NCBI RefSeq assembly: GCF_019175385.1
Contig: NC_083339.1
Span: 47,478,074 to 47,542,073 of the forward strand
DNA length: 64,000 bases
Source: Lycium barbarum
Taxonomy: Eukaryota; Streptophyta; Magnoliopsida; Solanales; Solanaceae
Direction of reading: 5' to 3'
Under the pieces are notes generated by a model that searched no databases, was not told where the DNA came from, and saw nothing but the letters and a program-made list of their open reading frames with translations. The position numbers were made by a program, and so were the translations under genes. Numbering within the stretch: the first letter of the stretch is position 1; each line of letters begins with the position of its first letter. This document shows, piece by piece, positions 16,117-64,000 of the stretch.

Positions 16117-16152
16117 TCCTTCCCCCCTTAAAAACATTCGTCCTCGAATGTT
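16117..16152 (-). other. PPT and perfect pre-PPT hairpin
   Basis: On the minus strand the purine tract (16130-16117) abuts the LTR. Immediately upstream is a perfect hairpin with 8-bp arms (16133-16140 and 16145-16152) and a 4-base loop. Confidence 0.85.
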
Positions 16153-19100: not shown

Positions 19101-19176
19101 GCTGGGACACATATACCGGTTGGCGCAGCCACATATGGGATGTCATACACATACACACACACATATATATATATAT
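16153..19176 (-). other. Non-coding 3' interior of the LARD-like element, purine-rich sense strand
   Basis: About 3 kb with no recognisable protein. The plus strand is strongly C/T-rich, so the element's sense strand is A/G-rich. Parts are the reverse complement of 62760-64000, for example the 'gaataccgag' and 'ggactagccttgg' blocks, which supports one family. Short frames here are not conserved. Confidence 0.7.
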
Positions 19177-19181
19177 ATATA

Positions 19182-22100
19182 TGTTATATCCCGCATTTTA
19201 TGCAATCGGATAATTCAAGACAAATGCGGGAAAACAACAAGCAAGGCAATATTTTATTTTGTTTGGCACATGAGTTGCTTATGAAGAGTCTAGAAGTGGA
19301 AATATGGAGAACGCCGAAGGGAAAATTTGGAAGTTGGAAAAATTGTTTCCATAAATTACAAGAACTAAGAATATAAAGTGGGCTTGACATTTTTTTTTAA
19401 GGAAATTTGAGGCCCAAACGTCCATGCATATGGGTCAAGCCCATATTGAATAAAAATTTGGTCAATAAAAAGATGACTAAGTCATCTTTATCACAACAAG
19501 CTCTAGAAATTTCAAGAAAATCAAGAACAAAAGAAAGAAGGAGAAAACCCTAAGGCATTTCGGCCATAGTAAAATTTCCCAAGGAAAATTGATAAAATTC
19601 TTCCAAAAATCATTTCCTACCAAGCTAAAGGTGCTTAACAAGGTGGAGTTGTTGTTGGAGCAAGAACAACTCATAATCCTACAAGTTGCCAAAAGATAGG
19701 CAAGTGAGAAGTTGAAGAAGAAAGGTGAGTATTGATCTTGTTTTATGAATTATGCATGGTTTATATGTGTAGTAGTATGTTAAAATTGATGAAAATCATG
19801 AAGGAGAGGAATATGAAGCATGGCCGTGTATGTATATGTATATATATATGTGTGTAGAAAGTGTGTTTTAATTATCTTGCCTAGTGTTGGTTGTTATGGT
19901 TGTGAATGAAATGTGGAAAATGGAAGTTGAATGAATTTTAGGAGAGATTGTAGTATGCATGCATGTGGCCGTGTGTTGTGTGTAGTGGTGTGGCCGTGTG
20001 GTTGTGGTATAATATGGAGGAGAACGAGTCAATTTTATGTAGTGCTTTGATTGTCGTTATGTTGCGGATTCTTTGTGTTAATGATTATCTATGAACCTTA
20101 GCAAAGTTGAAATGGTGGAGACTTGCTTTAGAAGTTAAACGAATGGAATGTAATGTTTCTTTGTATGCATGAAAGACTATATGATTAGTGTGATGTCGTT
20201 GGAACGTATACATGAGCTCGTTATTGATTTTATTGAAGTTGGACGGTTTTTGAAAAAAAAAGTAGTGAATTGTTTGAATATGGATGTTGCTAGTGTAGTC
20301 GTTAAATTCATATCGATAGTTTGGCCGGGTTTGAATTCCCGGATTGTGATTGATGCGAATTTGAATATGTTGAATGTCGAGGATGGTGTATTTACAGAGG
20401 AAATGCTGCCAAAATTTCGGTAGCCAATTGTTTCCTTAAGGTGTTAACTCTAAGTATGCTAATGAGAGTTTTGGTAAAAATGACCAAATCACAGATTTTG
20501 ACGAGATTGTGACTCGAATTTGGAGTAGCTAAAGGAGCGGAAAGAGGTATGTAAGGCTTCACCTTTCTTTCTATGGCATGTCTTAACTAAAAGAAGTCGG
20601 GTACGAGCCTCGGGGACAACCCTAATCCTTGGAATCCGCACCTAAAGTTTTCAACTTTTCGTTCAATTGAATTGAAGTAGAAAGTGTGCAAAATGATGAA
20701 AAGACCTTCTAGACCCCTATAACTTGCCTAAGTGGGACCCGATTACCCTAAGACTCATACAAGTAACGTTATGACACGTAATATGGGTAAATTATATACG
20801 CTACCTCGTCCGGCCCGAGGTGGGCCCGTTACTCTCGGATTTTCCTATAATCTTGGTTAACGTACTTGAAGTGAATCAAAAGGGGGCCTTTGATCCCGAT
20901 TTCGTCACCAAGTGATAAGTACTATGACTACTCCAGCGGGAGTGTTTCTATGATGATAATGATAATGACAATGTCGGACAAGAGAATGTAGCTATGATAA
21001 GTACGACCGGAACGACTCTACGACTAAGCCAAGTACTTCAAATAAACATGAAAGCAATAAACTAATTGTTGAATCATATTTATATTTTCTAGTTATAACT
21101 TTATTTTCTAAAATACCTTAGATTTCATTTTCGGTTACTGTAACACTATTTTCCGTTGATAGTTTCGCCTTAAAATACTTGTTCCTTCAAGGTGAGACAA
21201 AGCTATCACTAGCATTCCGTAATGTAATCGGAGGTCACCGACCTTATGTCACTCTGATGGATACATGATTTTCCTTGGCTCTCTTGTGTGCTTATATGAT
21301 ATAGGTACATAAAACGGGTATACGTGTATGGGTATGTATATATATATGGTAAAGTAAATGTATATAAGACATGTATATGCATAAAAGATGAGTAAATGTA
21401 TATATATGTGTATGTGGGGAAAAAGGGAAGGGCCACTGTTATATCACCACCTGATTCAGCTGTATTCCATCCTGGACGCGGGATGCCCGGACGCGGGATA
21501 TGGGATGAGCCGTACGCGGCGTCTGTATATATATATATAATGTGTGATACATATGTGATGTAATATGTTGGGTCATCGTTGGGGAGAGGGTTGGGGGAGC
21601 CGATTGTATTCGGCGTCTATAAATGTAAATGAAAGATACCGTCTACCGAATTGTACTGTTTTCTGTATACATGAATAAGGGACACCGAGGGGGGGTTGGG
21701 AGAGCCGATTGTATTCGGCGTCTGTAAATGTGAGCAAAAGATACCGTTACTGAAATGTACTGTTTTCTGTACACGAGAATAAGTAATATAAAAATGTTGA
21801 TTCCTATGCCTATGAAAAGAAACATTTCAAAGATGAAAAGAAAAGCCTACATGACAGCCGGACTAAAGAGGGGCCTTCCTATGTACAGGTTACGTTCTTG
21901 CCTCGTTATACGCCCTATGGCTTCGTGATATTATTATTGATCGTACTTCATGTTACTGCTTGCATTGTTTTCCATGCCTTACATACTCGGTACATTATTC
22001 GTACTGACGTCCCTTCTTGTGGACGCTGCGTTTCATGCCGCGCAGGTCAGCAGGTATACGGACCAGATTCCTAGTGCCCTATCAGCAGCATTCGACAGCG

Positions 22101-22414
22101 CTCCAGTTGTTCCGGGGCCTTATTTCATCGGTACTATTTTGTGTATGTATTTTCGGGCGCGACAGTACTCGGCCCTTTCTCTGTATAAATGTATTATGTC
22201 TAGAGGCTCGTAGACAGATATACACAGTCAGCTATGTACAGTTTAATGTATTTTATTCCGAATGGTCCGCGTTCTGGTGTAACGCGATATTAGAAAGTTT
22301 ACTGCAAATGTTAATGTTTAGAAAAAAAAATATGGCACTGTTTATACAGGATAGCTAAGGGGTGCTCGGTACAAGTATCGGGTACTCGTCACGGCCCCTG
22401 GTCGGGTCGTGACA
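19182..22414 (+). repeat. Solo LTR, 3233 bp, in the LARD-like interior
   Basis: It begins TGTTATATCCCG, ends GGGTCGTGACA, and is flanked by ATATA at 19177-19181 and 22415-22419. It was inserted into a TA/CA microsatellite; the host sequence on both sides aligns with the uninterrupted region near 62765-62850 on the other strand. No internal domain remains, so it is the product of LTR-LTR recombination. It carries the LTR core (21972-22046). The LTR at 50777-54130 is the same family in reverse. Confidence 0.9.
21590..21785 (+). repeat. Two-copy tandem duplication of about 105 bp in the solo LTR
   Basis: Two adjacent units each contain 'gccgattgtattcggcgtct' followed by 'gataccgt...ctgttttctgta'. 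The first starts near 21592 and the second near 21697. Confidence 0.8.
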
Positions 22415-22642
22415 ATATATATATGTTTACTAACGCCTCGCTTACAAAGTACTTCCCAATACTATTCGAACTCATCCTAATTCTAGAGCTGGGATGCAAT
22501 TTGTTTTTTCATTACCGGTCTAGTCCGCCTCATCCTTCGCGACCTTTTACGCTTTCTAACCACTCTGCATACTCCAATTTCCCTTAGGCTACTCTAGCTT
22601 CTCATTTGTCTCTTATGTCTGAATTTGTAGGACTCTTAATAT

Positions 22643-22744
22643 ACTTCCCAGGGGGTCACCCATCCTAGTATTTCTCTCACCCCAGCACGCTTAACCTTGG
22701 AGTGCTAATGGGATCCGGTGAATAGTGCTGGTATAATCGCATAC
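22643..22744 (-). pseudogene. 5S rRNA-derived sequence inside the LARD-like element
   Basis: On the minus strand this reads as plant 5S rRNA from near its 5' end (GCGATTATACCAGCACTA) through the internal control region (GGTTAAGCGTGCTGGGG, then ATACTAGGATGGGTGACC) to GGGAAGT, lacking about the last 15 bases. The C-box-like segment looks intact and no T-run terminator follows. It lies about 945 bp downstream of the PBS, in the same sense as the element. Equivalent copies are at 55710-55813 and 62459-62561. Cassandra elements carry 5S sequence in their LTRs; here it is in the internal domain. Confidence 0.85.
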
Positions 22745-23008
22745 ACCTTACTGCGTGACCTTCCTCACATAACCTAAAGCAAGTTGAAGTTTTAACAGAT
22801 TCCAAAACATTCTCGTAAGGCATCTCCCTCCGAATTAGAAAGGATCTCTTACTCGTCCGACTAAGCAAATGCTATTTTGGCCTTTGAAATCCTCAATAAT
22901 CACCTTCGATCTACATGTATGATTACTTTTCATCCTAGCTTTCAAGATTCCCAATGGTGGCGAAGGCAGATCGCAGTTACTTCCAAATACTCAAGTCACT
23001 GATCCCCT

Positions 23009-23504
23009 TTAGGATTTTCGCTCATCACTATTCAGTATAACACTGAAGTAAATACATACGCACATAGGAAGTTCCAATAAGAACACGTATATACCTGTAG
23101 CCGACCGGTCCTTAGCCTGATCTGGTAGGCTATCGTGTGAAGTGTGCTCTTCATCCTTATCTTCCCACCGTCTACTAGTCTGGCCTAACATAATGCTGAA
23201 ACGTAAGAAAAATCTAGATGCGCCAACTTTGTACTTGCTCAATTACGTCTTCATCCACAAAAGTCTCGTTGCCCTTAAACGGGTCTTTGTCATATGATTT
23301 CTCAGTCGGGTCTCCTCCTACTGGAGCCACATCCTCCGATGGGTCCGCCTCAATGAAATAACTGATGCTCTTTCTTATACCTCTTGACATCCTCGATCCT
23401 GAGACGACGGGCGATACGTGTCTCATGTCCCCCTTCGGAGCCTCACTTACGCTCCCATTAACTGAACTGGTCCTCTTCTCCAATACAGTCCTGCAATTTA
23501 ACAA
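23009..23504 (-). pseudogene. Remains of the small acidic LARD ORF
   Basis: Two overlapping frames are homologous to the ORF at 61625-62194. The upstream one (23504-23214) has SISYFIEADPSEDV..DPTEKSYDKDP, matching SLSYSIETDPSED..DPSKDSYDTNP. The downstream one (23242-23009) ends LPMCVC..LNSDERKS, matching FPMCVC..FNSDERKS. The ATG of the other copy is missing and a frame change separates the halves. A conserved CTACAG/GTATAT at 23100-23089 resembles a splice donor. The function is unknown. Confidence 0.6.
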
Positions 23505-23677
23505 AAATCGTACAAAGAACGAGCTTTCCTATCATTGGCTCTACTGCATGATCTATGATCAGAAAGAAAGATGACATCCTAAATGTCCTGTAGCTTTCTA
23601 TTTATAGATGTGGTGCACAACACACCGATAAACAAAACTCGACTAGACACAGTCTGTAGACATTCCAAGGATGAACT
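23505..23677 (-). other. Conserved leader downstream of the PBS
   Basis: On the minus strand this leader shares blocks such as 'gtctacagac.gtgtc' and 'aagctacaggacatttagga' with the leaders at 61416-61624, 56340-56521 and, more weakly, 38940-39166. Leaders of LTR retrotransposons usually hold packaging and dimerisation signals; that role here is inference. Confidence 0.65.
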
Positions 23678-23689
23678 GCTCTGATACCA
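23678..23689 (-). other. Primer-binding site, initiator-Met tRNA
   Basis: The reverse complement reads TGGTATCAGAGC, the classic complement of the plant initiator-Met tRNA 3' end, four bases from the LTR end. Confidence 0.93.
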
Positions 23690-23693
23690 CTTT

Positions 23694-26249
23694 TGTCACG
23701 ACCCAAACCGATGAGCCATGACTAGTGCCCGAGCTGGGCACCCATATACGACCTGTTAGATATCATCAGACTGAAACTGAAAACAATATAACGCTCTGTA
23801 AAAGAAAGCTATGAACTCATCATGTCATACATCAAAGAGAACCTGTCTCTTGAGAAGCCACAGCTAACCAAAACATAACAAATATACAAGCCAACAAGGC
23901 AACCACTATACACGGGGACATCCAAGACGAACTAAATCGGTATAGCTGACCAAATCGTATATACACACCCCACATATGTCCACAGACCTCTAAGAGTATA
24001 ACCAAGTCTATGCCAAAAGGATATGTACCAAAATAACCCAAGCTCGGGAACAATGGAGTTCTCCAAGCGGCTGGGCAGAAGTCCTAAGCCGGAGGATCAC
24101 CAAACTGAGTGTCTGTACCTGCGGGCATAAAACGCAGCCCCCGAAGAAAGTGGGTCAGTCCGAAGTGTACTGAGTATGTAAGGAATGAAATCAACATATA
24201 CGTAAAATCCAGGAAAACATTTGAGGCGTGTCAATGAATGGGCAAAATAAATGCATCTGTATAGCTATATCAAAGAAACACATATATCCATAGAAATATC
24301 ATAACAAAGGCCACAGCGTCACCCCCTGTCAACTGTGCCACATATATACACATCATAACAAAGGCCACAACACACCCCCTGTCAATTGTGCCATACATAT
24401 ACACATCACAACAAAGGCCACAACACACCCCCTGTCAACTGTGCCATATATATAAACATCACAACAAAGGCCATTGCACACCCCCTGTCTACTGTGCCAT
24501 ATATATACACATCACAACAAAGGCCACAGCACACCCCCTGTCAACTGTGCCATACATTTACACATCACAACAAAGGCCACAACACACCCCCTGTTAACTG
24601 TGCCATATATACACAACAAAGGCCATAGTACACCCCCTGTCAACTGTGCCATATATATACACATCACAACAAAGGCCACAGCACACCCCCTGTCAACTGT
24701 ACCATACATAAAAACATCACAACAAAGGCCACAGCACACCCCCTGTCAACTGTGCCATATATACACAACAAAGGCCATAGTACACCTGTGAACTGTGCCT
24801 TACATACACATGAAGAATGAAAATGAGTGCAGTACATAATCAAAATGAAACAATTGAGCTCTCTATAATGTCACAAAGTAGCCATATACATATATTATAC
24901 TCATGGAATGCACAGGAGTTCAAATGAAAACTATCGCTCTATCCCACCTTTGAGGAACAATTTATAAGGTGAGATCAACAACAATGCAATAAATCGAGAA
25001 AATCATGAAATAGCTTAACATTTTCATATCGTCGTTGAAATCATATTTGAGATGTTTAGGTATAAAATGATCCTCAACGTAATCCTCATAAAAACATTCT
25101 CATTTTTAACATCATAAGAAGCTTTAAGAGCCATAAACTTCTACCTTTTGAAATCAAGGAGGTTATGGAAACACTTATGGAATCATACCATAGGAATCAT
25201 GCCTTTGAAAGAAAGGGATGAGCCTTAACATACCTGTTCAGCCACCAACTACCTACGCTTATCCGTCCGAGCCCGCAAGTCTACATATAAGACAATTCAT
25301 ACTATGATTAGGTCCATTATCATATACTTATCCTAAGCCTTCAAATAATTCTTCCTAAGATCTGCCAAATTTCGGCAGCATCTCCTCTGTTTATATGCCT
25401 AGCCCAAAATCACAATTCAGCAACTAACAACAACAATAGCAATACCAACATCCATAACATCATTTCCAACACCAATATGTACCATAAAACAGCACACACA
25501 CTGTTTTCCAACTTCCATAACTAACAAGCTTACTACACGATTCTTTAGCGACTTTATCTCCGTAAATGAGCCTTAAATAATACCAAAAGAGAAAGATTCA
25601 TGCCTTTTTTTCTTGTTAATACAGAAATATCCTCAATATCCACGCTAAAATCCACCGCAAAACAATACTAGAATCACAACCATGCGTTACCCGGACCTAC
25701 ACCACTACTCCGATACTTGAAAATTGCTCAACCTTTGTTTTCCTCACTCTCTCTCTTCAATTTCTGGAATTTTCCAGCAAAATCTGGTGAAAAAAGGGGT
25801 TCTTACCCATTTTATAAGGGTCAGATTCGGCTGTAGAAGTACTGTAGCACGCGTTTCTGCTCTGTCAGCTGAACTTGTTACGTCCATAATTCTCTACTCC
25901 GAAGTCCAATCGACGAGCGGTTTATTGCGTTGGAAACTAGACTCGACGAACTTCATTTTAGGCTTTTGTTTCACCTTAAAACCCTTCATATGCTAAGAGA
26001 TAATAGTTCACCAAGTTGGACCAAAATTTTCACACAAAACATTACCCATCCTTTCTACAAAGTCGTACTACATTTCTTCCACTCATTTCCTTATAACACC
26101 TTCCGGTATACCTTATATACATCCTTCCTTATTAAATATACTTAATAATTCTTTGTCCTTATATTCCAAAGTGGTTTTACTTTACCATAACTCAACGTAC
26201 TTATGTTTCAAATTTGATAAGTGCTTCTTCGAAGATACAGGGTGTAACA
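23694..26249 (-). repeat. 5' LTR of the LARD-like element, 2556 bp
   Basis: It pairs with 13715-16116 and is next to the PBS. By eye the first 250 bp differ at roughly 7-8% of positions. The length difference comes from two extra tandem units and about 50 extra bases near 25120. Confidence 0.92.
24299..24812. repeat. Tandem repeat, 10 units of about 53 bp
   Basis: Same unit as 14310-14745, but ten copies, three of them shortened. The array has changed in copy number between two LTRs that were identical when the element inserted. Confidence 0.92.
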
Positions 26250-26254
26250 GTATA
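26250..26254. repeat. Target-site duplication GTATA, right
   Basis: GTATA directly follows the LTR end ...GTGTAACA at 26249 and matches the left copy. Confidence 0.95.
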
Positions 26255-27363
26255 CCCCTCTCCCCACCCCTCAATAACCTTGGGTTGATATCTCAGTGGA
26301 TTTTGTGTTGGGATTGCCTAGAACCAAAAGGGGTAAAGATAGCATCTTTGATGTTGTTGATCGATTTTCTAGAATGGCTCATTTCATTACTTGTCATAAA
26401 TTTGATAATGCTCCTCATGTTTCCTCTTTGTTTGTTGAGCATGTGGTAAATTTTCATGGTATTCCCAAAACCATAGTGAGCTATAGGGATCCCAAATTCC
26501 TTTGCCACTTTTGGAAAGAATTATGGGGACAACTTGGTACTAAATTGTTGTTTTCTACCTCCTGTCACCCATAAACCGATGGCCAAACCGAAGTTGTCAA
26601 TAAAACCTTAGGTTCTATGCTTAGGACTATGGTTAAAGGGAAACTAGCATCTTGGGAAGAAAAATTGCCTTTGGTTTAATTTGCTTACAATAGAGTCATT
26701 CATAGCACTATTGGCATGTCACCTTTTAAAGTGGTTTATGATTTTAACCCCCTAACCCCTTTGTCTCAAGATGTTGTGTTGAGTTTAGATGGAAACAATC
26801 AAGTCGAGGCCATGAAGATGTTGCATGAGAAGGTGAGGTTTCACCTTGAGAAGAACAACCAAGAAATGGCCAAGAGAGCAAACAAGAGCCGCAAAAGAGT
26901 TGTGCTTGAACCGGGTGATTGGGTTTGGGTACATTTCCAGAAAGAGAGATTTCCCAACAAGAGAAATACCGAGTTGATGCATAGAGGAGATGGTCCATTT
27001 GAAGTACTTGAACGACTCAATGATAATGCATACAAAATTGATCTTCCACCCGAATACCAAGTTCATAACACCTTCAATGTGTGTGATCTCTCTCCTATGG
27101 TTGTGCAAGATGATTATCCCTTAAATTTGAGGACAAATTCTCTTCAAGAAGGGGAGAACGATACAATCCAAGTTGAATCAAGGCCTTTTACAAGGAACCA
27201 AGCGAGGGAACTTCAAGCTATGCAAGCTTTGTTCATGAGGAGGGACATACTTGAATACATTCTAGAGCCTTTCCGGGGATTCCAAGTATTCATGGTAGCA
27301 TGGGAGGATGGTTTGGAGAAGAGTGTTGAAGATGGCCATGCTTGCAATATGGCTATTACTTGA
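26250..27363 (+). pseudogene. Integrase core and C-terminus of the CRM-like element
   Basis: After the duplicated GTATA the integrase resumes: [18 protein letters not shown] (first Asp, near 26290), then a second catalytic site that reads S-Y-R-D instead of S-D-R-D, then TDGQTEVVNKTLG near 26580 and FAYNRVIHSTIG near 26690. Stops interrupt HP*TDGQ and PLV*FAYN. The C-terminus is open from 26716 to 27363, with GDWVWVHFQKERFPNKR, GDGPFEVLERLNDNAYKIDLP, HNTFNVCDLSPM and a final TRNQARELQ segment. No classical chromodomain is seen. Confidence 0.88.
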
Positions 27364-32342: not shown

Positions 32343-34560
32343 TGTTACGCCCCGTATCTTCGAAGAGGCATTTATCAAATTTGAAACATAAGTACGTTGA
32401 GCTAGGGTTAAGTAAAACCACTTTGGAATATAAGGAGCAAGCATTATTAAGTATATTTAATGAGTGAAGGATGTATATAAGGTATACCGGAAGGTGTTAT
32501 AAGGCAATGAGTGGAAGAAATGGAGTAGTACGATTTTGGAGAAAGGATTGGTAATGTTTTGTGTGAAAATTTTGGTCCAACTTGGGGGATGAATATCTCT
32601 TAGTATTTCAAGTGTTTTGAAGTGAAACAAAATCCTAAAATGAATTTCGTTGAGTCTAGTTTCCAACGCAACAAACTGCTCGTCGATAGGACATCGGAGT
32701 AGAGAATTATGGACGTTACAAGTTCAGCTGACAGAGCAGAAACGCGTGCAACAGTACTACAGTGAACCTGACCCGAATTTGACCCTTATATAAAGGGTAA
32801 TAACCCTCTTTTTCCATCAGATTTTGCTAGAAAATTCCAGAAATTGAAGAGAGAGAGTGAGGAAAACAAAAAGTGAGCAATTTTCAAGTAGCGGAGTAGT
32901 GGTTTAGGTCCCGGTAACGCATGGTTGTGATTCTAGTATTGTTTTACGGTGGATTTTAGCGTGGATATTGAGGATATTGCTGTCTTAACAAGAAAAAAGG
33001 TATGAATCTTTCTCTTTTGGTATTATTTAAGGCTTATTTACGAAGAGATAGTCGTTAAATAATTGTGTAGTAAGTTGGTTAGTTATGGATGTTGGAAAGC
33101 AGCGTGTGGGCTGTTTTATGGTACATATTGGAGTTGGAAATGATGTTATTAATGTTGGTATTTTTGTTGTTGTTGTTGGTTGTTGGATTGTGATTTCGGG
33201 CTAGGCATATAAACAGGGGAGGTGCTGCCCGAATTTCGGCAGATTCTAAACAGAATTAAATTGAAGGCTTAAGATGAGCGTATGACATTGAGCCTAATAA
33301 TAGTATGAATGGTTTATATGTAGATTTACGAGTTTGGAAGGATAAATGTTGAACGACTAAGGCGACCCAAAGGTATGTTAAGGCTAGTCCCTTTCTTTCA
33401 AAAGGCATGATTCTTATGTTATGATCCCATACATATTTTTCATAACCTTCTTACTTCCAAAAGTTAGAAGTTCATGATTCTAAAAAGATCTTTATGATGC
33501 TAAGGATGAGATATTTTATATGATGAACATGATGATGATGATTTTAATTCTAGAAATTCGGAATTATTGATGGTCATTACGATATTATTGAGCCATTCTA
33601 TGAATCCCTTGATCTTTCTTATTATTGATGGTCTCACCTCATGTTACTCGTTCCTTCGAGGTGAAATATAGTGAAGATAATGATTCTATTTTCAACGCTA
33701 TGTAAGTTCACGATTCTCGAGACTTCCATGACATTATCGGATTCATCTTACGATGGTTGGCTCTTCAAGGAATGATATAGTGACAATGGTAATACTAATG
33801 ATGATGTTGATGTGGCCGGGCAAGATGCTTTATATATTATTGTGCCTGAATGAGCGGGCAAGATGCTATATATATTACCACGCCTTAATGGACGAACAAG
33901 ATATTATATAGGGATATGTATGGAAAAGTGTTTTTTTAAAAGCTAAGCATGCACGACATTCTCCTTAAAAGGGCATTCAGAGGCATAGATTGATCTCTTT
34001 TATATTACTCTATCTCCATAAGTTCATTATATTAATTTCCATGTTCGGTATCTCTCACTATGTTACTATTCATGCCTTACATACTCAATATATTGCTCGT
34101 ACTGACGTCCCTTCTTGTGGACGCTGCGTTCATGCCCGCAGGTGTAGATAAACGAGACGAGGATCTTTCATCGTAGGCTCTCTTCAGGTGCTGGTCTTGA
34201 GTGGTGGCTCCACTTCTTCCTGGAGCATTGCCAAGTCGGAGTCTATGCATATATATATATATATATATGAATTATATTCAGGGTAGGTCGGGGGTCCTGT
34301 CCCGACCTGTATACCTCAGTCATGTTCATAGAGGCTTTGCAGACAGTTCCTGTGTACAGCTTAGTCATAGTGTGACAGAAGTAATGTCGGCATCATGGGT
34401 CTATTGTATATTTACTTATGCATGATATTATGTTCATATTTAGCCTGTTGATCTTGTTGTTGCCATTCGAGACATAGAGGATGTGAGTTGTAAGTTGGTT
34501 CGCTCGGTTTCCACAAGGTGCCGGGTGCCAACAGCGCCTTACCTAGGGTGGGGCGTGACA
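32343..34560 (+). repeat. Solo LTR, 2218 bp
   Basis: It begins TGTTACGCCCCG, ends GGGGCGTGACA, and is flanked by GTTTT at 32338-32342 and 34561-34565. Its first 300 bp resemble the start of the LARD LTRs (at 26249 and 59625). It carries the LTR core at 34072-34142 and a short TA run near 34246. No internal domain remains. Confidence 0.92.
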
Positions 34561-50776: not shown

Positions 50777-53700
50777 TGTCACGACCCGTCTAGGGGCCGT
50801 GACGAGTACCCGATACTTGTACCGAGCACCCCTTTTATCGTTTTACCTTTACCTCTTAGCAAGTCATGTAAACAGAGCCATTTTGTTTTTTGAACATTAA
50901 CATTATCGGCGTCATTCTGAACATAGACTAATAAACTTCGTTATCAATTATACATCAACATTAGCATGCCAAAACACCATATATCTAACTGTACTTAACT
51001 GACTGTACATAGCTGTCTACGAGCCTCTAGACGTAGTACACTTATACATAGAAAGGGCCGGGTGCTGCCGTGCCCGAATATACATACACAAAATAGTACC
51101 GCAGTAGTGAGGCTCCGAAACAACTGGAGCGCTGTCAACACTGCTGGTAAGGCTCCTAAGGATCAAATCCGCCTATCTGCTGACCTGCGCGGCATGAAAC
51201 GCAGCGTCCACAAGAAGGGACGTCAGTACGAATAGTGTACCGAGTATGTAAGGCATGAAAGATAACACTAGCAATAACATAATGTATAATTAATAATGTC
51301 ATGGAGTCACAGAATATAGAAGATAGAACGTATCTCATGTCATATATTATCATCTCGTATCATATCGTATTATATTTTATCTTGTCTTGTTGTAGTATAT
51401 CACGTCATAGTATATCGTGTCATAGAGTGTCAGGATATAGTATATCATAACATATTACCTCATATCGTAGCATGGCATGTTATAGCATGTCGTGTCATAG
51501 CATAGCGTGTCATAGCATGTCTTACCATAGCATAGCATATCATAGCGTATCATAGCATAGCATAGCTTGTCATATCATGTCCTGTCGTAGCAGATCATAG
51601 CATATCATGTCATAGTATAGCTTACCATAGCATATCTTATCATAGCATGTCTGGTCATGACATGGTAGGTCATATCATAGCGTCGATCAATGCCGGCTCA
51701 CCCACATAGCGCCGATATACACCGGCTCACCCATATATCCCGCGTCCGGGATGATAAGCCAGCTGATCAGGTAGCAATGAAACATGTTTCCCTTCCCATT
51801 CCCCCATGTATCCCTTCCCCCCAACCCAGGTTCATATACATAGCTTGCATACATATACATGTCTTATATACATTTACTTATCTTATATACATATATATCT
51901 TTTATATACTTATACATATCTTATATACACATACATGTTATATATTTATATATACATGTCTTATATACATAGACATGTTTTCTATATGTATATATCCTAT
52001 AAGCAAACAAGGGAGCCCAAGGAAAACTCATATAGCCATCGAAGCGGCGTAAGGCCGGTGACCTCCGATTACATTATGGAATACTCGTGATCGCTCTTGT
52101 CTCACCTCGAAGGGACGAATATTTTGAGGTGTGATGGTCAATGGAGAATAGTATTAAAGTAAACGTAGAATGAAATTATGGGCATCATAGATGACAGTTC
52201 ATAGACTTTGAAATCTTTAGAAAATAAAGTCATAGCTAGGAAATATAAATAAGATTCAAAAATTAATTTATCATTTTCATATTTACATAAGATACTTAGC
52301 TTAGTTATCTTGGTCATAGAGTCGTTCTGGTAGCACGTATCATAGGCATATCCTCTTATCTAACGTCATTGTTATCATTACCGTCATGGAAGGGTCCTCG
52401 TTGGAGGAGTCATAGTACTTATCATTTGGTAACAAAATCGGGATCAAAAGTTCCCTTTGGGCCCACCTCGGGCCGGATGGGGTGGCGTATGTTATTTACA
52501 TATATTACGTGTCATGTCATTACTTGTGAGGGTTCTAGGGTAATCGAGTCCCACTCGTGCAAGTTCTAAGGGTTTAAGTGGTCTTTCCATCATTTGCACA
52601 CTTTCTAGTTCAATTCTATTGAACAAAAAGTGGAAAACTTTAGGTGCGGATCCCGGGGACTAGGGTTGTCCCCGAGGCTCGTACCCGACTTATTACAGCT
52701 AAGACATGCCATAGAAGGGAGGGTGAAGCCTTACATACCTCTTTCCGCTCCTTTTGCTATTCCAAATTCACGTCGCAATCTCGTCAAAATCTGTAAATTG
52801 GTCATGTTTACCAAAACTCTTATTAGGGTACTTAGAGTTAGAATCTTAAGGAAACATTTGGCTACCGAAATTTCGGCAGCACTTCCCCTATAAATACTCC
52901 ATCCCACCAAGTTCAACTTGGCTAATTTCAATCAAAAACAATCCCGGGAATTCAAACCCGGCCAAAATATCAACCACAATTCCAACAACAACAATACTAA
53001 CAACTTTCATATTCAATCAACTTACTACTTCTTCCAAAAACTTTCTAACTTTAATGAAAACAATAACAACCTCATAATCTATATTCCAACAACATCATAC
53101 TAAATAAAATTGACTCATTCTCTTCCATTTTTTCACCATAACCACACGGCCAACACCAACATACACACTACAACTTCTCAAAATTCATTCAACTTCCATT
53201 TTCCACATATCATTCACAACAATAACAACCAAACACTAATTAAAATAATTGAAGCATGACTCCTACACATATATACATACACACGGCCATGTACTACATT
53301 TCTCTCCTTCATGAATTTCATCCATTTTAGCATACTACAACACATATAAACCATATATAACACATAAAACAAGATCAAAACTCACCTTTCTTCTTCAACT
53401 TCTCACTTGACTACAACTTGACAACTTGTATGATTTTGAATCTTTCTTTCTCCAACAACAACTCCACCTTGTTAATCACCCTTTACTTGGTAGAAAATGA
53501 TTTTTGAAGAATTTTTATCAATTTTCTTGGTGGTTTTTGATCTTGGCCGAAATGGCCTTCAAGTTTTTCTCCTCCTTTTCTTGTTCTTACTTTCTTGAAA
53601 ATTCTAGAGAGTTTGATGAAAAAGATGACTTGGTCATCTCTTTATTTACTCATTAACCTTGATGTGGGCTTAAGCCCACACCAAATGGACGACCAAACAA

Positions 53701-54135: not shown

Positions 54136-54430
54136 ATTGACACAAGTTCCCAAGTCAATTCTTGGGAAGACTAAGAGTCACCTTGAGAAAAGAGCGTCCA
54201 AGTTCCTAATCACCTCTTGGGAAAACGAGAAGTCAAGTGTGCAAGTCCCTAGTCATCTTTTAGGAAGACGAGAAGCTACATTGAAACTTGTAGTAATTAA
54301 ATTCCAAGACAAGTTGCTCAACGGATATTAATTAGTAAGACTTAGGGGGCTGCCTTGCACATTTTAAGGGGGATTGGGAAGCTTCTTAATCCTTTCTTTG
54401 TGAGCAGGTCTGTCCTAGGGAGTCTACAAG
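54136..54430 (+). other. Leader of the CRM-like element, second part
   Basis: It resumes after the CATTA duplication. It has three degenerate repeats of a 'caagt.cc.agtca.cttttggga.gac.aga' type phrase between 54140 and 54290. No coding frame is recognised. It ends where sequence homologous to 58047 begins. Confidence 0.55.
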
Positions 54431-55458
54431 ATACCTGATTGATCTCTTATGAATTAACGCTTATTCTCCCGAACTTGAAAATCTACATTCAAGAGAAATT
54501 ATACTACCGTTAGAATTATCGTCATATACCTGTCTCAAGTCCTTAAACCAAACTCCTTTAGAATCTGCCAAATTTCGGGCAGCATCTCCCCTGTTTATAT
54601 GCCTAGCCCGGAATCTCAATTCAGCAATCAACAACAACAACAACAATACCAACATCAATAACATCATTTCCATCACCAATATGTACCATAAAATAGCCCA
54701 CACGCTGTTTTCAAACTTCCATAACTAACCAACTTACTACACAATTATTTAACGACTTTATCTCCGTAATTAAGTCTTAAATAATACCAAAAGAGAAAGA
54801 TTCATACCTTTTTTCTTGTTAAGACAGCAATATCCTCAATATCCACGCTAAAATCTCCCGTAAAACAATACTAGAATCATAACCATGCGTTACCCGGACT
54901 TCAACCACTACTCCGTGACTTAAAAATTGCACACTTTTGATTCCCTCACTTTCTCTCTTCAATTTTCTGGAATTTTCCAGCTAAGTCTGGTGAAAAAAAA
55001 AAGGGGTTCTTAACCTTTTTATAAGGGTCAAATTCGGGTGTCACTGTAGCATTTTACTGTAGCAAGACGGTACTGTAGCATTAATGTAGCACGCGTTTCT
55101 ACTCTGTCAGCTGAACTTGTAACGTCCATAATTCTCTACTCCGAAGTCCAATCGATGAGCGGTTTATTGCGTTGGAAACTAGACTTGGCGAAATTAATTT
55201 TAGGCTTTTGCTTCACCTTAAAACACTTCATATGCTAAGAGATATTCGTCCGGCAAGTTGGACCAAAATTGTTCCTTATATTTTCTCCAAAGTCCGACAA
55301 ACTTAATTTCCTTCATTCACTTGCCCTCCAGTCCTTTCGATACTTCTAATACATGATTTTAACCCTTATAACTATAGAATAGACGCATATCACTTTAGTG
55401 TTCACAATTAAGCAGTTAACACCTACGGAACTCAACGTCCGAACTGCGTGGTGTAACA
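54431..55458 (-). repeat. 3' LTR, truncated to about 1.03 kb
   Basis: It aligns closely with 58047-59076, the last kb of the other LTR. The missing part lies beyond 54431, where CRM-like leader sequence joins. Confidence 0.88.
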
Positions 55459-55494
55459 TTCTTCCCCCCTTAAAAACATTTGTCCTCGAATATT
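55459..55494 (-). other. PPT and adjacent hairpin (imperfect)
   Basis: On the minus strand a purine run abuts the LTR at 55458; hairpin arms lie at 55475-55482 and 55487-55494 with two mismatches. Confidence 0.7.
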
Positions 55495-55709
55495 GTAGTT
55501 ACAAATCCACGATGTTTTTACTGATGTCTTAAAGTTATTTTCCTTCTCTTGTACTTCGATCGCCTTATTTTTAACATAGGTTGGTCAACCTCTTCTCTCG
55601 CAATCATTTAGAATCTCCAATCGTGAGGTTCACACGCTTCTAATTTCCCTCAAACTGTTCTAGTTCCTCATCCTTCCTTTATGTCTAAGCCTGTAGGTCT
55701 CCTTAGGAC

Positions 55710-55813
55710 ACTTCCCAGGGGGGTCACCCATCCTATTACTACTCTGGCCCAAGCACACTTAACCTCGAAGTTCTGATGGGATTAGGTGCATTTGTGCTGG
55801 TATGATCACGTCC
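55710..55813 (-). pseudogene. 5S rRNA-derived sequence inside the compact element
   Basis: The minus strand reads GGACGTGATCATACCAGCAC, then CATCAGAACTTCGAGG, GGTTAAGTGTGCTTGGG, AGTAATAGGATGGGTGACC and ends GGGAAGT. It follows plant 5S rRNA over about 104 of 120 bases and ends at the same place as the other two copies. It lies 720 bp from the PBS and in the element's sense orientation. Confidence 0.85.
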
Positions 55814-56339
55814 ATCCTACTGCGTGGCCTTTATCACGTGACCTAAAATAAGTTGAAGTTCTAACAGATCCCAAGAAAAATTTTGATCATGCATCTCCCT
55901 CTGAATTGGAAAAGTTCCTCATGTTACTGACCACGTAAATGTTGTTTTAGTCTTTGGAACTCCCTATTACTTCTCGTTTTTCCCATTATCGGGTGTCATA
56001 ATTTCTCTAATACCTTAGTCAGTCCTTGTGCTCATACTCAAGCTTACTTACTTCCCCCCTTAAAGGTTTTACCTTATGGTGTTGTATTTCATTGTCATTC
56101 TTGATCGAAATTTCATCCCATAATAATCCTTTCGTCCTCACTTTTTATACTTCCCCAGTCACTTCCCCTTCCATTCATTGGTTGTACATTTCAATCATAC
56201 TTGCAACACTCTTACCATATCAGACTTATAATCCTTTTAACCAATACTTACCTCTATGCTGACTTCTTCAACTTCTATTGTCCCTATAATCCCAATATCA
56301 CCATTCACTTCCTTTGCCAGTACCATTCTTCTACCGAAA

Positions 56340-56521
56340 TCAAGGGTTAGTGCAAGGAATTTCATTTCCTATAACTTGGCTCTCATCGCACGATCTTAGA
56401 TATGAAAGAAGGGTAACCATCCTAAATGCCCTGTAGCCTCCTGTTTATAAATGTGGCGCGCAATACACCATAAACAAGACTCTACTGGACACGACTTTGC
56501 AGACAACCCCTAAGACGGACT
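56340..56521 (-). other. Conserved leader downstream of the PBS
   Basis: It contains the complement of 'cgtgtccagtagagtc', 'gcgcgccacatttataaa' and 'ggctacagggcatttagga', matching the leaders at 61416-61624 and 23505-23677. The interval 55814-56339 between the leader and the 5S segment shows no clear feature. Confidence 0.65.
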
Positions 56522-56533
56522 GCTCTGATACCA
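56522..56533 (-). other. Primer-binding site, initiator-Met tRNA
   Basis: The reverse complement reads TGGTATCAGAGC, four bases from the LTR end at 56538. Confidence 0.93.
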
Positions 56534-56537
56534 CTTC

Positions 56538-59076
56538 TGTCACGACCCAAACCGGAGGGTCGCAACTGACACCCAAGACCCAACTCGGCTGAGTGCCATA
56601 CTACCATTCCATCCATGAGTCACAAATTTTTGTGAACCTTTAATCTATGAAATGACGCTTCCGTCAGGTACAAAAAAAAACTTTTCAATAAAACTCGTTA
56701 GTCAAATTACGGAATTCTCCCTTATCGTTAATTCAAGAAAACCTTTAGTCACAAATAAAATCTTTACAAAGGAAACAAAGCATAAAGGCACATCGACCTA
56801 TATGGTCACCTTACACAACTGTCGACTCCTCGACGCCCTATCCATAGGACATTGTCTGCAAAGTCTCTAACATATACAAAATACCATAACATAAGTACTT
56901 GACTCGGCAACACTCCGAACTGAGGTGGAGCACACCAATCCAGCTGATAGTCTGGGAACATCCTATAGCCAATGTCTTCTACTCATCTGTATACACCTCC
57001 GTGGCGTGAAACGCAGCGCCCCCAGGCAAAGGGACGTCAGTACGAACAATATACCGAGTATGTAAGGCAGAACTGAAACAATATATCTCGACTCGGATGA
57101 CAAAAAAGTAACAGACTCAACCTGTACTTGTAACCAACTCTGATAAACATGTACGTGCATATGAACTTTTGATGCAGCATGAGTATGTGTATATATATGT
57201 ATATATCAATATAATGCATGCCTTCACCCTGCTCGCAGCCCCTTCGGGCATAATAGCATATGGCCCCTTCGAGCATCATAACCATCGTATACCAGCTGAT
57301 CAGGTGGTTTGCGTATATAACGCCTTAGCCCTTTTCCCTTCCCTATGAAATGTTGTCGTGCATGTATGTAAATATGTAAATGCATGAAAATCTTTGAAAA
57401 CCATCAAAAGACTTCCTTCGGAGCAATTTTAATGCAAAACGGGAACTTCTTTCCCTTTTCATTTGTCTCCTTCGAGACTCCAAAATTTAAATGGAAAATG
57501 CATAGGAAAGAGAAAACCCTTTGAATGTCCCCTTCGGGAATTAGACAACATTATGAAATTGCACAACTTATGGATGCCCCTCCGGGACTCAAGAGGTCAA
57601 AGATACGAATACTCCTATACTGTCTAAGAATAGAGTCTTTGGAGTTCGTTTATTTGCTGGGTTTGTTTGGATAATAAGGATCTTCACCACTACTATAATC
57701 ATCACCACTATCATGTCTCACTTTGAATGATCCATAACATAAACAGAGGCCATATGTTATATAGCACGCTCAGACATAAGCTGAGGCCATAACACACTCA
57801 GACATAAGCTGAGGCCATAGCACACTCAGACATAAGCTGAGGCCATATATTATATAGCATGCTCAGTCACGTCATAAAATCATCTAGAACCTTAGGCTTG
57901 AAAATCTCTAGGATTGGAGTCATCGTAGGATTTTTTCAGAAACTATAGACTTCTGGCACTTCTAGGAGTAAAAATATTATGGAGGTCATGTATGGAATCA
58001 AAACATATGAATCATGCATTTGGAAGAAAGGTTTAACCTTAACATACCTGATTGATCTCTTACGAATTAACGCTTATTCTCCCGAACTTGAAAATCTACA
58101 TTCAAGAGAAATTATACTACCGTTAGACTTATCGTCATATACCTGTCTCAAGTCCTTAAACCAAACTCCTTTAGAATCTGCCAAAATTCGGGCAGCATCT
58201 CCCCTGTTTATATGCCTAGCCCGGAATCTCAATTCAGCAATCAACAACAACAACAACAATACCAACATCAATGACATCATTTCCATCACCAATATGTACC
58301 ATAAAATAGCCCATACGCTGTTTTCCAACTTCTATAACTAACCAACTTACTACACAATTATTTAACGACTTATCTCCGTAATTAAGTCTTAAATAATACC
58401 AAAAGAGAAAGATTCATACCTTTTTTCTTGTTAAGACAGCAATATCCTCAATATCCATGCTAAAATCTCCCGCAAAACAATACTAGAATCACCACCATGC
58501 GTTACCCGGACTTAAACCACTACTCCGTGACTTAAAAATTGCACACTTTTAATTCCCTCACTTTCTCTCTTCAATTTTATGGAATTTTCTAGCAAAATCT
58601 GGTGAAAAAAGGGGTTCTTACCCTTTTTATAAGGGTCAAGTTCGGGTCTGGTCACTGTAGCATTTTGTTGTAGCAGTATTGTAGCATGTCGGTTATTGTA
58701 GCACGCATTTCTGCTCTGTCAGCTGAACCTGTAACGTCAATAATTCTCTACTCCGAAGCCCAATCGATAAGCAGTTTGTTTCGTTGGAAACTAGACTCGA
58801 CGAACTTCATTTTAGGTTTTTGTTTCACCTTAAAACACATCTTATGCTAAGTGATATTCGTCCGCCATGTCAGACCAAAATTGTTCCTCATATTTTCTCC
58901 GAAGTCCGACACACTTAATTTCCTTCATTCACTTGCCCTCCAGTCCTTTCGATACTTCTCATACATGATCTTAAACCCTTATAACAATAGAATAGAATAG
59001 ACGCATATCACATTAGTGTTCACAATTAAGCAGTTAATACCTACGGAACTCAACGTCCGAACTGCGAGGTGTAACA
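56538..59076 (-). repeat. 5' LTR, 2539 bp
   Basis: It begins TGTCACGACCC beside the PBS and ends GGTGTAACA. It carries the LTR core (about 56997-57070), one GCGTATATAACGCC (57308) and a 29-bp tandem array (57750-57870). Confidence 0.9.
57750..57870. repeat. Tandem repeat, 4 units of about 29 bp
   Basis: Units of the form 'cactcagacataagctgagg' plus 'ccata', two of them extended by 'tatatagca'. Confidence 0.88.
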
Positions 59077-59624: not shown

Positions 59625-60238
59625 TGCTACACCCCGTATCTTCGAAGAAGTACTTATCAAATTTGAAACGTAAGTACGTTGAGTTATGGTTAAGTAAAAC
59701 CACTTTGGAATATAAGTAGCAAGCATTATTAAGTATATTTATTGAGTAAAGGATGTATATAAGGTATACCAGAAGGTTTTATAAGGAAATGAGTGGAAGA
59801 AATGGAGTAGTATGACTTTGGAGAAAGGATGGATAAAGTTTCGTGTAAAACTTTTGGTCCAACTTGACGGAAGGATGTCTCTTAGCATATGAGGTGTTTT
59901 AAGGTGTTTCAAATCCTAAAATGAAGTTCGTTGAGTCTAGTTTCTCAATATTATTCATGGATGATGACTCAATTTCTAACGAGTCCAATGTGTATGAATT
60001 GGCGCTTTATGAGATTTATGATCTTTACTCTATGTTTTCCCCTGATGTTATTCTTCATTGATAGTCTCACCTTATAGGGCTAGTTCCTTTAAGGTGAGAC
60101 ACGACAGTCATGATTATTCCATAATACAATTAGAGGTTACCGACCTTACATCACTCCGATGGAGTTATAGCTTTTGATTGGGCTCTTATGCATGCTTATG
60201 TTATGATGATTACAAAATGCTTATACGGCCGGGCAGCA

Positions 60239-60259
60239 CCACTACGCTGGGCGTAGTGG
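60239..60259. repeat. Short palindrome CCACTACGC/GCGTAGTGG in repeated module
   Basis: Nine-base arms with a three-base loop. Degenerate copies of the surrounding 'cgggcagcaccac...gtagtgggcggc' module follow to about 60400, and a related module lies at 48665-48790. Confidence 0.75.
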
Positions 60260-60780
60260 GCGGCATATGGATGATTACACCGTGCCTATACGGCCGGCCA
60301 GCACCACCACGGTAGGCGTAGTGGGCGGCGGCTTATAGATGATGATAATAACACCGTGTCAATATGGCACGGGCAGTACCACTAGTGGGCGGCGTGAGAT
60401 GATTACCCCAGACGCGGGCTAATGATGTTAATTGATTCAGACAGTTTATGTATCTATGTGTGATATGTTTTGAAGGTAAAAGTGAGCATGCATGATTCCG
60501 CCTTAAAAGGCAACCAGTCATAGTTGTACCTTCTTCTTACGTGTTCTATATTTCCTTATTATGTTGTTGTTCGTATTCTGTACATATTATCATGTTATCA
60601 TTCATGCCTTACATACTCAGTACATTACTCGTACTGACGTCATTTTTTTAAGACGCTGCGTTCGTGCCCGCAGGATCAGGTAGCTAGTTGAGCGAGCCAT
60701 ACAAGTAGGATCTCTCTTTCGTCTCAGCCAGCGAGCTCCATTTGGACCGGAGCGACCGCCCTTTTGGTATGCTCTTTTTT

Positions 60781-61295
60781 GATAAATAGGTATGACAGGG
60801 GCTTGTCCTGTCTCTTCTACAGTCGGTATTCTATAGAGGTTTGTAGACAATGTTATGTAGCCGTGATGTTATGCAGCCTTGTCGGATCTTGCGTTGTTGT
60901 ACAGTACATGTAATGGCCTAATCGGCTTACGCTGTTACTCTTAGTATTTATGCTTATATGTATGCGTTTACCGTGAGTTCTCGAGACGATGTTTCTTGTG
61001 TTGATTATTCAAGAGACAATATAGCTCTGTTATGGATTGATAAACGGGTATGACAGGGGCTTCTCCTATCTCTTCTATAGTCTGTATTCTATAGAAGTCT
61101 GTAGACAGTGTTATGTAGTCGTGATGTTATGAAGCCTTGTCCGCGCTTGCATTGTTGTATAGTATATGTAGTGGCCTAATCAGCTTGCGTGTTACTTTCA
61201 GTATTTATGCTTATATGTATGCGTTGGCCGTGAGTTCTCGAGACGGTGGTTCTTGTGTTGATTATTTAGGAGACTGTATAACTCAGTTATGAATT
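60781..61295 (+). repeat. Tandem duplication of a 258-bp unit in the LTR
   Basis: 60781-61038 is repeated at 61039-61295 with scattered substitutions ('gtatgacaggggcttgtcct' versus 'gtatgacaggggcttctcct', and so on). The unit includes the 'tctatagaggtttgtagacaa' segment found once in other LTRs. Confidence 0.92.
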
Positions 61296-61403
61296 GTGTA
61301 TGGGCCCAGGTTAATCAATGAGAAGTGAATCCAAGCATAGGAGCGCTTGGCCAGTAGTGGTCGGGAATTCGTCAAGGCTCATCGGTTTGGGTCGTGACAA
61401 AAG

Positions 61404-61415
61404 TGGTATGAGAGT
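61404..61415 (+). other. Primer-binding site (two mismatches to initiator-Met tRNA)
   Basis: It reads TGGTATGAGAGT where the other elements have TGGTATCAGAGC, four bases after the LTR end. Confidence 0.8.
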
Positions 61416-61624
61416 CATTCGTCCAAGGGATTGTCTACAGACAGTGTCCGGTAGAGTCCTATTTATGGGTGTGAAGGCGGCCACACTTATAAACAGGAGG
61501 CTACAGGACATTTAGGAATCATTGACCTTTCTTTCAATCTCAGATTGTGCGATAGAGCCAGAGTCTAAGGAAAGATCGCTTCTGGCCCCTTTTTCGTGTA
61601 GGTAAAAGTGCAGACTAACAAAAG
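61416..61624 (+). other. Conserved leader
   Basis: It contains 'gtctacagacagtgtccg', 'ggcggccacacttataaac' and 'aggctacaggacatttagga', shared with the LARD-like leaders at 23505-23677 and 56340-56521. It leads into the ATG at 61625. Confidence 0.65.
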
Positions 61625-62194
61625 ATGAAGAGATCCGCCTCAGATAGTGGGGGTGCTAAAAAGGCCCCCAGAGTAGGTTCTGGACCTTAGGCTTCAGGAC
61701 GGAGCAGGAGGAGCCTCAGTTATTCCATTGAGACTGATCCCTCGGAGGATCCAACGACGATTGCTCAAGAGTTTTTGACTTCTGGGGAGGAAGATCCCTC
61801 AAAGGATAGTTATGACACGAATCCGTCTGAGGATTCGTCTAGGACCCCAGAGGAGGAGATTCCTGAGGCCGTACCAGCTGCTCCTGTGGCAGAGCACTAC
61901 GTCAGACGAGCTACCTCGGTGAGTGTTACTGATTACTCTAGCCTTCTATCCTGGCCGTCGGTAAATCAGGAGCTGCCCGATTATCTATATCCCTCGGACT
62001 TAGATGAGAGAGATGATAAAGACCAGATGAACAGATGGTGGATAGACAATGACGAGAGAACACTTCACTTTATAGCCCACCGAATCAAATTAAGGACCGA
62101 TCGACTACAGGTATATGAGACTTTATTGGAATTTCCTATGTGTGTGTGCACTTACTATAGGTTACTGTTTAATAGCGACGAGCGAAAATCCTAA
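61625..62194 (+). CDS. Small acidic ORF of the LARD-like element (one in-frame TAG), unknown function
   Basis: From the ATG at 61625 the frame runs 189 codons to the TAA at 62192, broken by one TAG at 61688. Homologous stretches in two other elements (23504-23009 minus; 29615-30073 plus) suggest it was once translated. The first 35 residues are basic and Ser/Gly-rich (MKRSASDSGGAKKAP, then GRSRRSLSYSI). Then comes an acidic segment with DPSED/DPSKDSYD/NPSED repeats, then VSVTDYSSLLSWPSVNQ and a Trp pair (NRWWIDND). A conserved CAG/GTATAT at 62108-62116 resembles a splice donor, so the mature protein may end differently. No signal peptide, membrane segment or known domain is visible. It could be an accessory protein or a decayed gag N-terminus. 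Confidence 0.55.
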
Positions 62195-62458
62195 TGGGAC
62201 CGATAACCATGTATTTATAAGTAACGACGATCAAGGTGTTTCACCACCATTGGGAATTTTGAAATCTAGGATGGAAGGTAGTTGTACACGCAGATGAAAG
62301 GTGAATATTGAGGATTGAAAAGGCCAAAATAGTATTTGCGTAGTCGAAAGAGTAAGAGATCCTTTCTAATTCGGAGGGAGATGCATTACGATAATGTATT
62401 GGAATCTTTAGAACTTCAACTTGTTTTAGGTCATGTGAGGCAGGTCACGCAGTAAGGT

Positions 62459-62561
62459 GGATGCGATCATACCAGCACTAATGCACCAGATTTCATCAGA
62501 GCTTCAAGGTTAAGTGTGCTGGGGTGAGAGAAATACTAGGATGGGTGACCCCCTGGGAAGT
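62459..62561 (+). pseudogene. 5S rRNA-derived sequence inside the LARD-like element
   Basis: This copy starts exactly at the plant 5S 5' end (GGATGCGATCATACCAGC), and the first 29 bases agree with canonical plant 5S rRNA as I remember it. The A-box-like region (GGTTAAGTGTGCTGGGG) and C-box-like region (ATACTAGGATGGGTGACC) follow. It stops at GGGAAGT, about 15 bases before the 5S 3' end, with no terminator. It lies 1055 bp after the PBS, in sense. Flanking 'aacttcaacttgttttagg' and 'gcagtaaggtggatgcg' are conserved in the other copies. Confidence 0.88.
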
Positions 62562-64000
62562 ATATTAAGAGCTCTACAAATTCAGACATAAGAGGCAGAT
62601 AAGAAATTAAAGTAACCTAAGGGAATTGGAGTATGCAGAGTAGTTGGAAACCCTAAAAGATCGCGAAGGATGAGACGGACTAAACCGGCAAAGAGAAAGA
62701 AGGTGCATCACCGCTCTAGAGCTAGGATAAATGTGAAAGGTATTCAGAAATACTTTGGAAGCAAGGCATTAGTAAATATATATGTGTATGTGTATATGTA
62801 TGTATGTGTATGACATCCTATATGAGGCCGCGCCAACCGATATATGTGTGCCCCAATAACCGACGCTGCTATATACCGAAGGCATTAATCGAACAGGTTA
62901 GTGATGTTCAAGTGACAAAAGAATGTTACTAGGTAAGCCGATGTTACTTTCATTACAGGTTGTATTTGGAAAGTCCGAATGCAATGACATCCGGGAAAGG
63001 AAGAAAGTGAGTATGCAGAAAGTAAGAAGATCAAAATTTCGTGAGAAAAAAAAAAGGAACAAGGATGAGTGAAGCTTCCAAGAGAGACGACGGGCAAAGC
63101 AAGGGACTATTTGGATAAAATTTGAAGTTAAGAGTGCGAAAGGGATAAAGTACGGTAGTATGGAATAAAAGATGAATGTGTAGGGTTGGAGAACAGATTT
63201 TGACAAGTGGGACTAATGGATAGTGACCACAACTAGGAATGTGAAGTAAGAGAGAGAATGATCAGGCCTTGCAACGATACTAAGAGATTTCCAGCTCTTG
63301 AGAGGTATATAAAGGGATAAATGTGTAGTGATACTGAAACGGTTGCCTCAGAAATGAAGAAGCATTACTAAAAGATGATCTATGAATAGAATGGATTTGC
63401 ACGTTTAAAGGAATATTTCATGAACTTCAGGGTCGATACCATAAAATAACAAGTGGAAAAGGGTGCTCGAGGAGGAAGGAACTCAAGGAAGGTTTGAGAA
63501 TTAAAGTAGGAAAGGTACACTAATGGGCTGGTCAAAAGGATAGGAGAGAAGAAAAAGGAAAGAAAAGAAAAATTGAGCAATCACCAAGGACAAGCGAGAG
63601 GATAATGAACTAACAAAGCTAACCGGGAGGTAGTACATCAATGACATGGGATGAGGATAAGGAATACCGAGATTCGATTATAAAGGACATAGAAGGATGT
63701 ATGGGAAATATTCATGAATATGGACTAGCCTTGGTAGTAGGAAGGAGAAGAAAGAAGAGAGTATATTTTCAAGGATTTCACGACACGAACAAGAAGTAGT
63801 AGAACACAGGAAGAACTAAGTAGTCAAGGAAAATTCCGGATAAGTGAGCTAAGTGAATAAAAGGATTGATAGTGAAAGTGGAAGAGTGTAGCATTTTAAC
63901 TCTCAATGATATATTGTAGACGTAAAGTTAAACAGAAACTTAGAGTAAGAAGAATTTTAGTGATAATAGTTGTGGAGGAAGATGATGGATAAAAAGAGCA
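62562..64000 (+). other. Non-coding, purine-rich interior to the window end
   Basis: Strong A/G bias on this strand, no protein motif. It is homologous to the complement of 16153-19181 and 22415-22642. TG/TA-rich sequence at 62775-62815 corresponds to the microsatellite into which the solo LTR at 19182 inserted in the other copy. Confidence 0.65.

Follow-up and report, generated by a model that had tools for sequence, protein, structure and literature searches.

The locus described here raises the question of how a piece of 5S rRNA sequence came to lie inside LTR elements of Lycium barbarum and whether it does anything for them. A profile search with RF00001 (cmscan, Rfam gathering score) was performed over the window, by which we mean the entire 64-kb stretch of DNA that was analyzed. 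Three matches exceeded the gathering score, located at 62459-62577 on the plus strand (52.1 bits), 22626-22744 on the minus strand (55.0 bits), and 55692-55813 on the minus strand (59.8 bits), and we refer to the elements that carry them as E62, E22, and E55, respectively. In every copy, similarity to 5S rRNA started at 5S nucleotide 1 and ended at the motif GGGAAGT, near nucleotide 103, beyond which the Rfam match consisted of poor pairing and filler. Defined by the profile match and the GGGAAGT end, the 5S piece comprises 103 bases in E62 (62459-62561, plus strand; 5S nucleotides 1 to 103), 102 bases in E22 (22643-22744, minus strand), where one base is missing near 5S position 22, and 104 bases in E55 (55710-55813, minus strand), where one additional C is present within the C-run of box C. 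Each piece is oriented in the sense direction of its element and is located in the interior, outside the LTR; it begins at a distance of 1060 bases (E62), 950 bases (E22), or 725 bases (E55), counted from the end of the 5′ LTR, and the RF00001 search detected no 5S match in either LTR of E22. Moreover, the arrangement of box A and box C separated by 18 nt that was published for Cassandra elements (PMC7215508) matched all three pieces with zero mismatches. No such match was expected by chance, as calculated from 100 dinucleotide shuffles, and no other site in the window fit the pattern when up to three mismatches were allowed. An Rfam search of 62200-62800 returned 5S and no other RNA family, and a tRNA search of the whole 64-kb window found none. 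We conclude that three elements carry 5S sequence in the sense orientation with a common end, as a preliminary description of this DNA had proposed, and its estimate that the pieces lie 720 to 1055 bp after the PBS is near the distances measured here from the end of the 5′ LTR.

E22 is a complete element of 12,535 bp (13715-26249, minus strand) that has TG...CA ends and a 5-bp TSD, GTATA, at 13710-13714 and 26250-26254. Its 5′ LTR (23694-26249, minus strand; 2556 bp) is followed by a PBS, TGGTATCAGAGC, and its 3′ LTR (13715-16116, minus strand; 2402 bp) is preceded by a purine tract. The two LTRs differ by 6.7% (K2P 0.070 over 2393 sites, gaps left out) and are 86.7% identical by BLAST when gaps are included. 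Each also contains a 53-bp unit in 8 to 9 tandem copies, at 14318-14737 and 24298-24767. E22 is nested inside a plus-strand Gypsy element and interrupts the gag-pol of its host. A domain search located gag of this host at 10362-10991 and its reverse transcriptase, RNase H, and integrase H2C2 domains at 12176-13743; the SH3 part of the integrase follows on the far side of E22, at 26680-27360. All of these lie on the plus strand.

The other two elements are less complete within the window. E55 consists of a 5′ LTR (56538-59076, minus strand; 2539 bp), an interior of 1079 bp (55459-56537, minus strand) that holds both the 5S piece and a PBS identical to that of E22, and a truncated 3′ LTR of which 1031 bp are left (54428-55458, minus strand); where the LTR parts overlap, they differ by 6.2% (K2P 0.065 over 1027 sites). 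E62 has a 5′ LTR of 1775 bp (59625-61399, plus strand) and an interior (61400-64000, plus strand) with a PBS-like sequence, TGGTATGAGAG, at 61404; the element continues past the window end, and all values given for it refer to the portion inside the window. A stretch of approximately 260 bp is duplicated in the E62 LTR (60779-61039 and 61037-61296). A fourth family copy is a partial LTR (32343-33546, plus strand) for which no adjoining family interior was found. The leader piece and the block containing the 5S sequence each occur at three places in the window, and thus 5S is present in all three of the family interiors found there.

The sense strand of the E22 interior contains nine open stretches of at least 70 amino acids, five of which lie within a nested insert, and none of the nine had a Pfam match above the cut-off, one DFF-C match falling below it. 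The absence of gag-pol from E22 refers to open stretches of that length. The insert measures 3233 bp (19182-22414), has TG...GTCGTGACA ends, lies in a TA repeat, and is related to opposite-strand sequence at 50777-53649; it may be the solo LTR of a different family. E22 therefore combines LTRs, PBS, PPT, and TSD with a long interior that is devoid of gag-pol domains, as in a LARD, and E55 and E62 show these structural features in part. The earlier proposal that the elements are of LARD size holds for E22 but not for E55, with its 1079-bp interior, and the window stops within E62. We infer that the family is one of non-autonomous Gypsy-type LTR elements, presumably Tekay/Del-like, a label that we base on LTR-end, PBS, and PPT motifs.

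The E62 interior also contains an open stretch of 167 amino acids (61691-62191, plus strand) without a Pfam match, the family of which is acidic and rich in repeats. A protein search recovered 9 relatives, and 27 were recovered when the search was done by alignment; the 13 of these 27 that carry an organism label are all from Lycium (11 from L. ferocissimum and 2 from L. barbarum). Among the nine relatives fetched, eight start with MKR and one with MNR, and in E62 a stop codon is located at 61688-61690 in the same frame.

The three 5S pieces could descend from one event or from several. A block around the 5S piece, 62310-62620 on the plus strand, is common to all three elements, being 88.8% identical to 22894-22584 of E22 and 78.1% identical to 55955-55679 of E55 over 279 aligned columns, with the E55 flank alignment weak past approximately 30 bp downstream and the BLAST alignment ending at 62591. 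Farther out, the E55 interior aligned well in the leader and the 5S block only. The flanks are thus homologous on both sides of the 5S piece, in agreement with the preliminary description, and the 5′ and 3′ junctions are identical in the three copies. Differences were counted against a Solanaceae 5S reference sequence, which by eye fits the Rfam consensus and which is identical to one Solanaceae primer site and 1 base different from the other. By this reference, E62 and E22 each differ at 12 of 103 positions and E55 differs at 10, with one of the E22 differences being a gap and the additional C of E55 being left out. Relative to the same reference, one derived base, A50G, is common to all three copies, five are found in E62 and E22 only, and two are found in E62 and E55 only. 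The sequences would fit an early split between an E55 lineage and an E62/E22 lineage. Because the junctions are the same, the flanks are homologous, and the piece is present in every one of the three interiors in the window, a single capture in a common ancestor, followed by inheritance with the family, is well supported, and independent captures sharing identical junctions are very unlikely. The same account had been put forward from first inspection of the sequence, and the two comparisons named against it leave it standing for these three copies: the breakpoints do not differ, and the 5S piece has not evolved faster than its flanks. Collections of viral and prokaryote contigs, which say nothing on plants, yielded no relatives: the junction pattern and a plant 5S pattern each had zero matches among the viral contigs, and the prokaryote search likewise had zero.

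The ends of the piece bear on the route by which it was acquired. Active Solanaceae 5S genes have a TATA-like box at −28 and GC at −14 and need C at −1 (PMC5260122). Upstream of the 5S piece, both the −28 box and the −14 GC are absent in all three copies, and the base at −1 is T in each. The captured piece lacks the 3′ strand of helix I. Because the piece starts exactly at +1, is devoid of 5S spacer signals, has a cut 3′ end, and lies in the sense orientation, it was likely captured at the RNA level by template switching, as judged from end positions in three 5S-bearing copies. The 130 bp upstream were also considered as a decayed second copy of 5S and rejected, as their similarity did not exceed that of shuffles in any of the three elements.

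Two other routes would place the 5S piece in the interior as DNA. One is the insertion of a Cassandra LTR or a 5S-derived SINE, the remainder of which has decayed. Cassandra has the same box pattern and the same PBS (PMC7215508), and in some species it contains more than 100 nt of 5S (PMC10853983), but its 5S core is approximately 70 bp (PMC10853983), no direct repeat of more than 4 bases resembling a target site was found between the 30-base flanks of the piece, and no A-tail follows it. We consider such an insertion distinctly improbable. The other is capture from a truncated 5S pseudogene, for which Atropa belladonna offers an example in its short 5S repeats. Their 3′ ends fall short by 18 bp, their base at −1 is T, and they have been proposed to represent orphans located away from the 5S loci (PMC5260122); their ends are thus almost those of the present piece. 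The Atropa repeats, however, are nearly spacerless, whereas the flanks here show no similarity to 5S above shuffles, and the Atropa repeats could equally descend from a capture of the present kind. DNA-level capture from such a pseudogene we regard as very improbable.

The piece could be either a passenger or a module retained for its function, in which the part with box A and box C would bind TFIIIA and recruit pol III, or would open chromatin, and would thereby help the family persist, with box C kept by selection. Consistent with a function, the box A-18 nt-box C arrangement is intact in all three copies, and 5S divergence across the E55 split is approximately half of that of the flanks, taken as 150 bases upstream and 100 bases downstream (14.6% versus 31.8% for E55 and E62, Fisher P 0.0008; 18.6% versus 30.7% for E55 and E22, P 0.024). 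When only the flank alignable by BLAST was used, the E62-E55 comparison gave a P of 0.034. Between E62 and E22, 5S and flanks are equally different, at 10.8% each. Moreover, none of the 24 changed positions falls within 5S positions 79 to 103 in any copy, a region that was picked post hoc with the data already seen; the P of 0.004 was computed for positions 78 to 103, which hold one changed position. The invariance of box C was not due to a mere lack of methylatable sites, as it persisted when CG/CHG-type changes were removed (0 of 17 changed positions within 79 to 103; P 0.0055). The promoter boxes, which we take to be located at positions 50-64, 67-72, and 80-99, hold 5 of the 24 changed positions (P 0.024), and the same box test performed per copy showed no effect (P 0.44, 0.21, and 0.38).

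Other observations weigh against a retained function. The comparison includes three copies, the box coordinates are assumed, the 79-103 region was chosen after the fact, and the additional base of E55 falls in box C itself. The 60 bp upstream of the 5S piece (62400-62458) are as conserved as 5S in all three pairs, and the constraint is therefore not specific to 5S. A preserved 5S fold was considered and rejected, as 18, 17, and 19 of 21 helix pairs are kept in E62, E22, and E55, respectively, a retention comparable to that under changes scattered at random (P 0.79, 0.76, and 0.24). Folding energies were likewise nothing special (z-scores of −1.2, −0.3, and 1.2 against single-base shuffles). 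Because helix retention is at random level, E62 and E22 have diverged equally in 5S and flanks, and the pol III signals are missing, the 5S piece is most likely carried along, mainly as a passenger, within an interior block that is conserved. Against a pure passenger stand the lower divergence of 5S than of flanks across the E55 split and the unchanged positions 79 to 103, which we read as weak evidence of constraint on box C. Retention of the piece as a functional module we consider unlikely.

The preliminary description had further suggested that the retained internal promoter could allow pol III transcription or bind TFIIIA or ribosomal protein L5, which might aid RNA stability or nuclear export. 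The pieces do not display the signals of a functional pol III 5S gene, namely, the −28 and −14 elements, C at −1, and a T-run terminator. The first TTTT downstream of the 5S piece occurs after 637 nt in E62 and 234 nt in E55, and box A is separated from box C by a spacer with 4, 4, and 2 substitutions in E62, E22, and E55, respectively. A depletion of T-runs as an adaptation to pol III was also rejected, as 4 were found versus 2.7 expected in E62 and 2 versus 2.0 in E22, the latter count spanning 300 bases of which the last part lies inside the nested insert. Moreover, a pol III transcript that started at the 5S piece would be without PBS and 5′ LTR and so presumably could not serve as the template for a new element. 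With upstream signals and a near terminator missing and the box spacer substituted, the evidence argues against an efficient pol III gene, and the random-level helix pairs together with the uncaptured 3′ strand of helix I argue against a 5S-like RNA. A related reading, in which the interior 5S control region is a working landing site for TFIIIA and pol III apart from the promoter of the genomic RNA, with box C kept under selection for as long as two sublineages were active, appears quite unlikely.

The account that we favor, and hold to be somewhat more probable than all others combined, is one RNA-level capture followed by inheritance in the interior block as what is now mostly a passenger. 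A non-autonomous Gypsy-type family would have taken nucleotides 1 to 103 of cellular 5S rRNA once, in a common ancestor. During minus-strand DNA synthesis, reverse transcriptase would have quit the element RNA, entered 5S rRNA near nucleotide 103, copied it to the 5′ end, and finally come back to the element RNA, and such a template switch would produce the sense orientation, the exact 5′ end, and the cut 3′ end. Afterwards, the piece would have been inherited within the conserved interior block, and it is now most likely a largely passive passenger, perhaps having been under weak box C constraint during family activity.

If the piece is family-wide, it represents a further and differently placed capture of 5S by LTR elements besides those of Cassandra and Ajax. 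Capture would moreover be separated from promoter use, since a transcript started in the interior could not give rise to a complete element. If family-wide, such pieces would also mean that Solanaceae 5S annotation and copy counts can include retrotransposon sequence, and they might account for orphan, truncated 5S repeats of the type reported from Atropa. In a study that counted 5S rDNA in Capsicum, the passages on 5S that were covered here, 12 of 13, do not mention 5S in elements (PMC7076952). In the available literature on 5S in LTR-element interiors, LARDs, Tekay, and Solanaceae, most of it outside subscription journals, no description was found, and within that range the earlier claim that 5S is not known from inside LARD-size elements stands, the known cases being the LTRs of Cassandra and Ajax. 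As far as these sources go, what is new here is that large elements have 5S in their interior, and what was already known is that non-autonomous LTR elements can capture 5S.

Comparison with known systems separates what is shared from what differs. Like the elements described here, Cassandra is a non-autonomous LTR element, carries a 5S piece with box A and box C 18 nt apart, and has the PBS that is found in E22 and E55. Unlike them, Cassandra carries 5S in its LTRs (PMC10853983, PMC7215508), whereas the elements here have it in the interior, from which a pol III transcript would presumably not yield a new element, and have LTRs of 1.8 to 2.6 kb. Cassandra is 565 to 860 bp in length (PMC10886601), and its TRIM size is exceeded by E22, at 12,535 bp, and by the 2539-bp LTR of E55 alone. 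Ajax, a nemertean TRIM of the TRIMp3 group, is likewise a non-autonomous LTR element in which the 5S part ends past the promoter region, but it is found in animals, measures 421 to 434 bp, and has its 5S in the LTR, with the promoter part alone clearly 5S-like (PMC10886601). Chimeras of 5S and LINE-1 in mammals also begin at 5S nucleotide 1, have a cut 3′ end, and are joined to a retroelement, but they occur as single insertions at the 5′ end of a non-LTR element, are antisense in most cases, and do not form a heritable family module (PMC13174262). Finally, the short 5S repeats described as orphans in Atropa belladonna resemble the pieces in having lost 18 bp from the 3′ end and in the T at −1, and changes of the C>T and G>A types are numerous in them (PMC5260122). 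They are PCR clones of short repeats without element context, compared here by their published description, and it may be that pieces of the present kind were already encountered in them.
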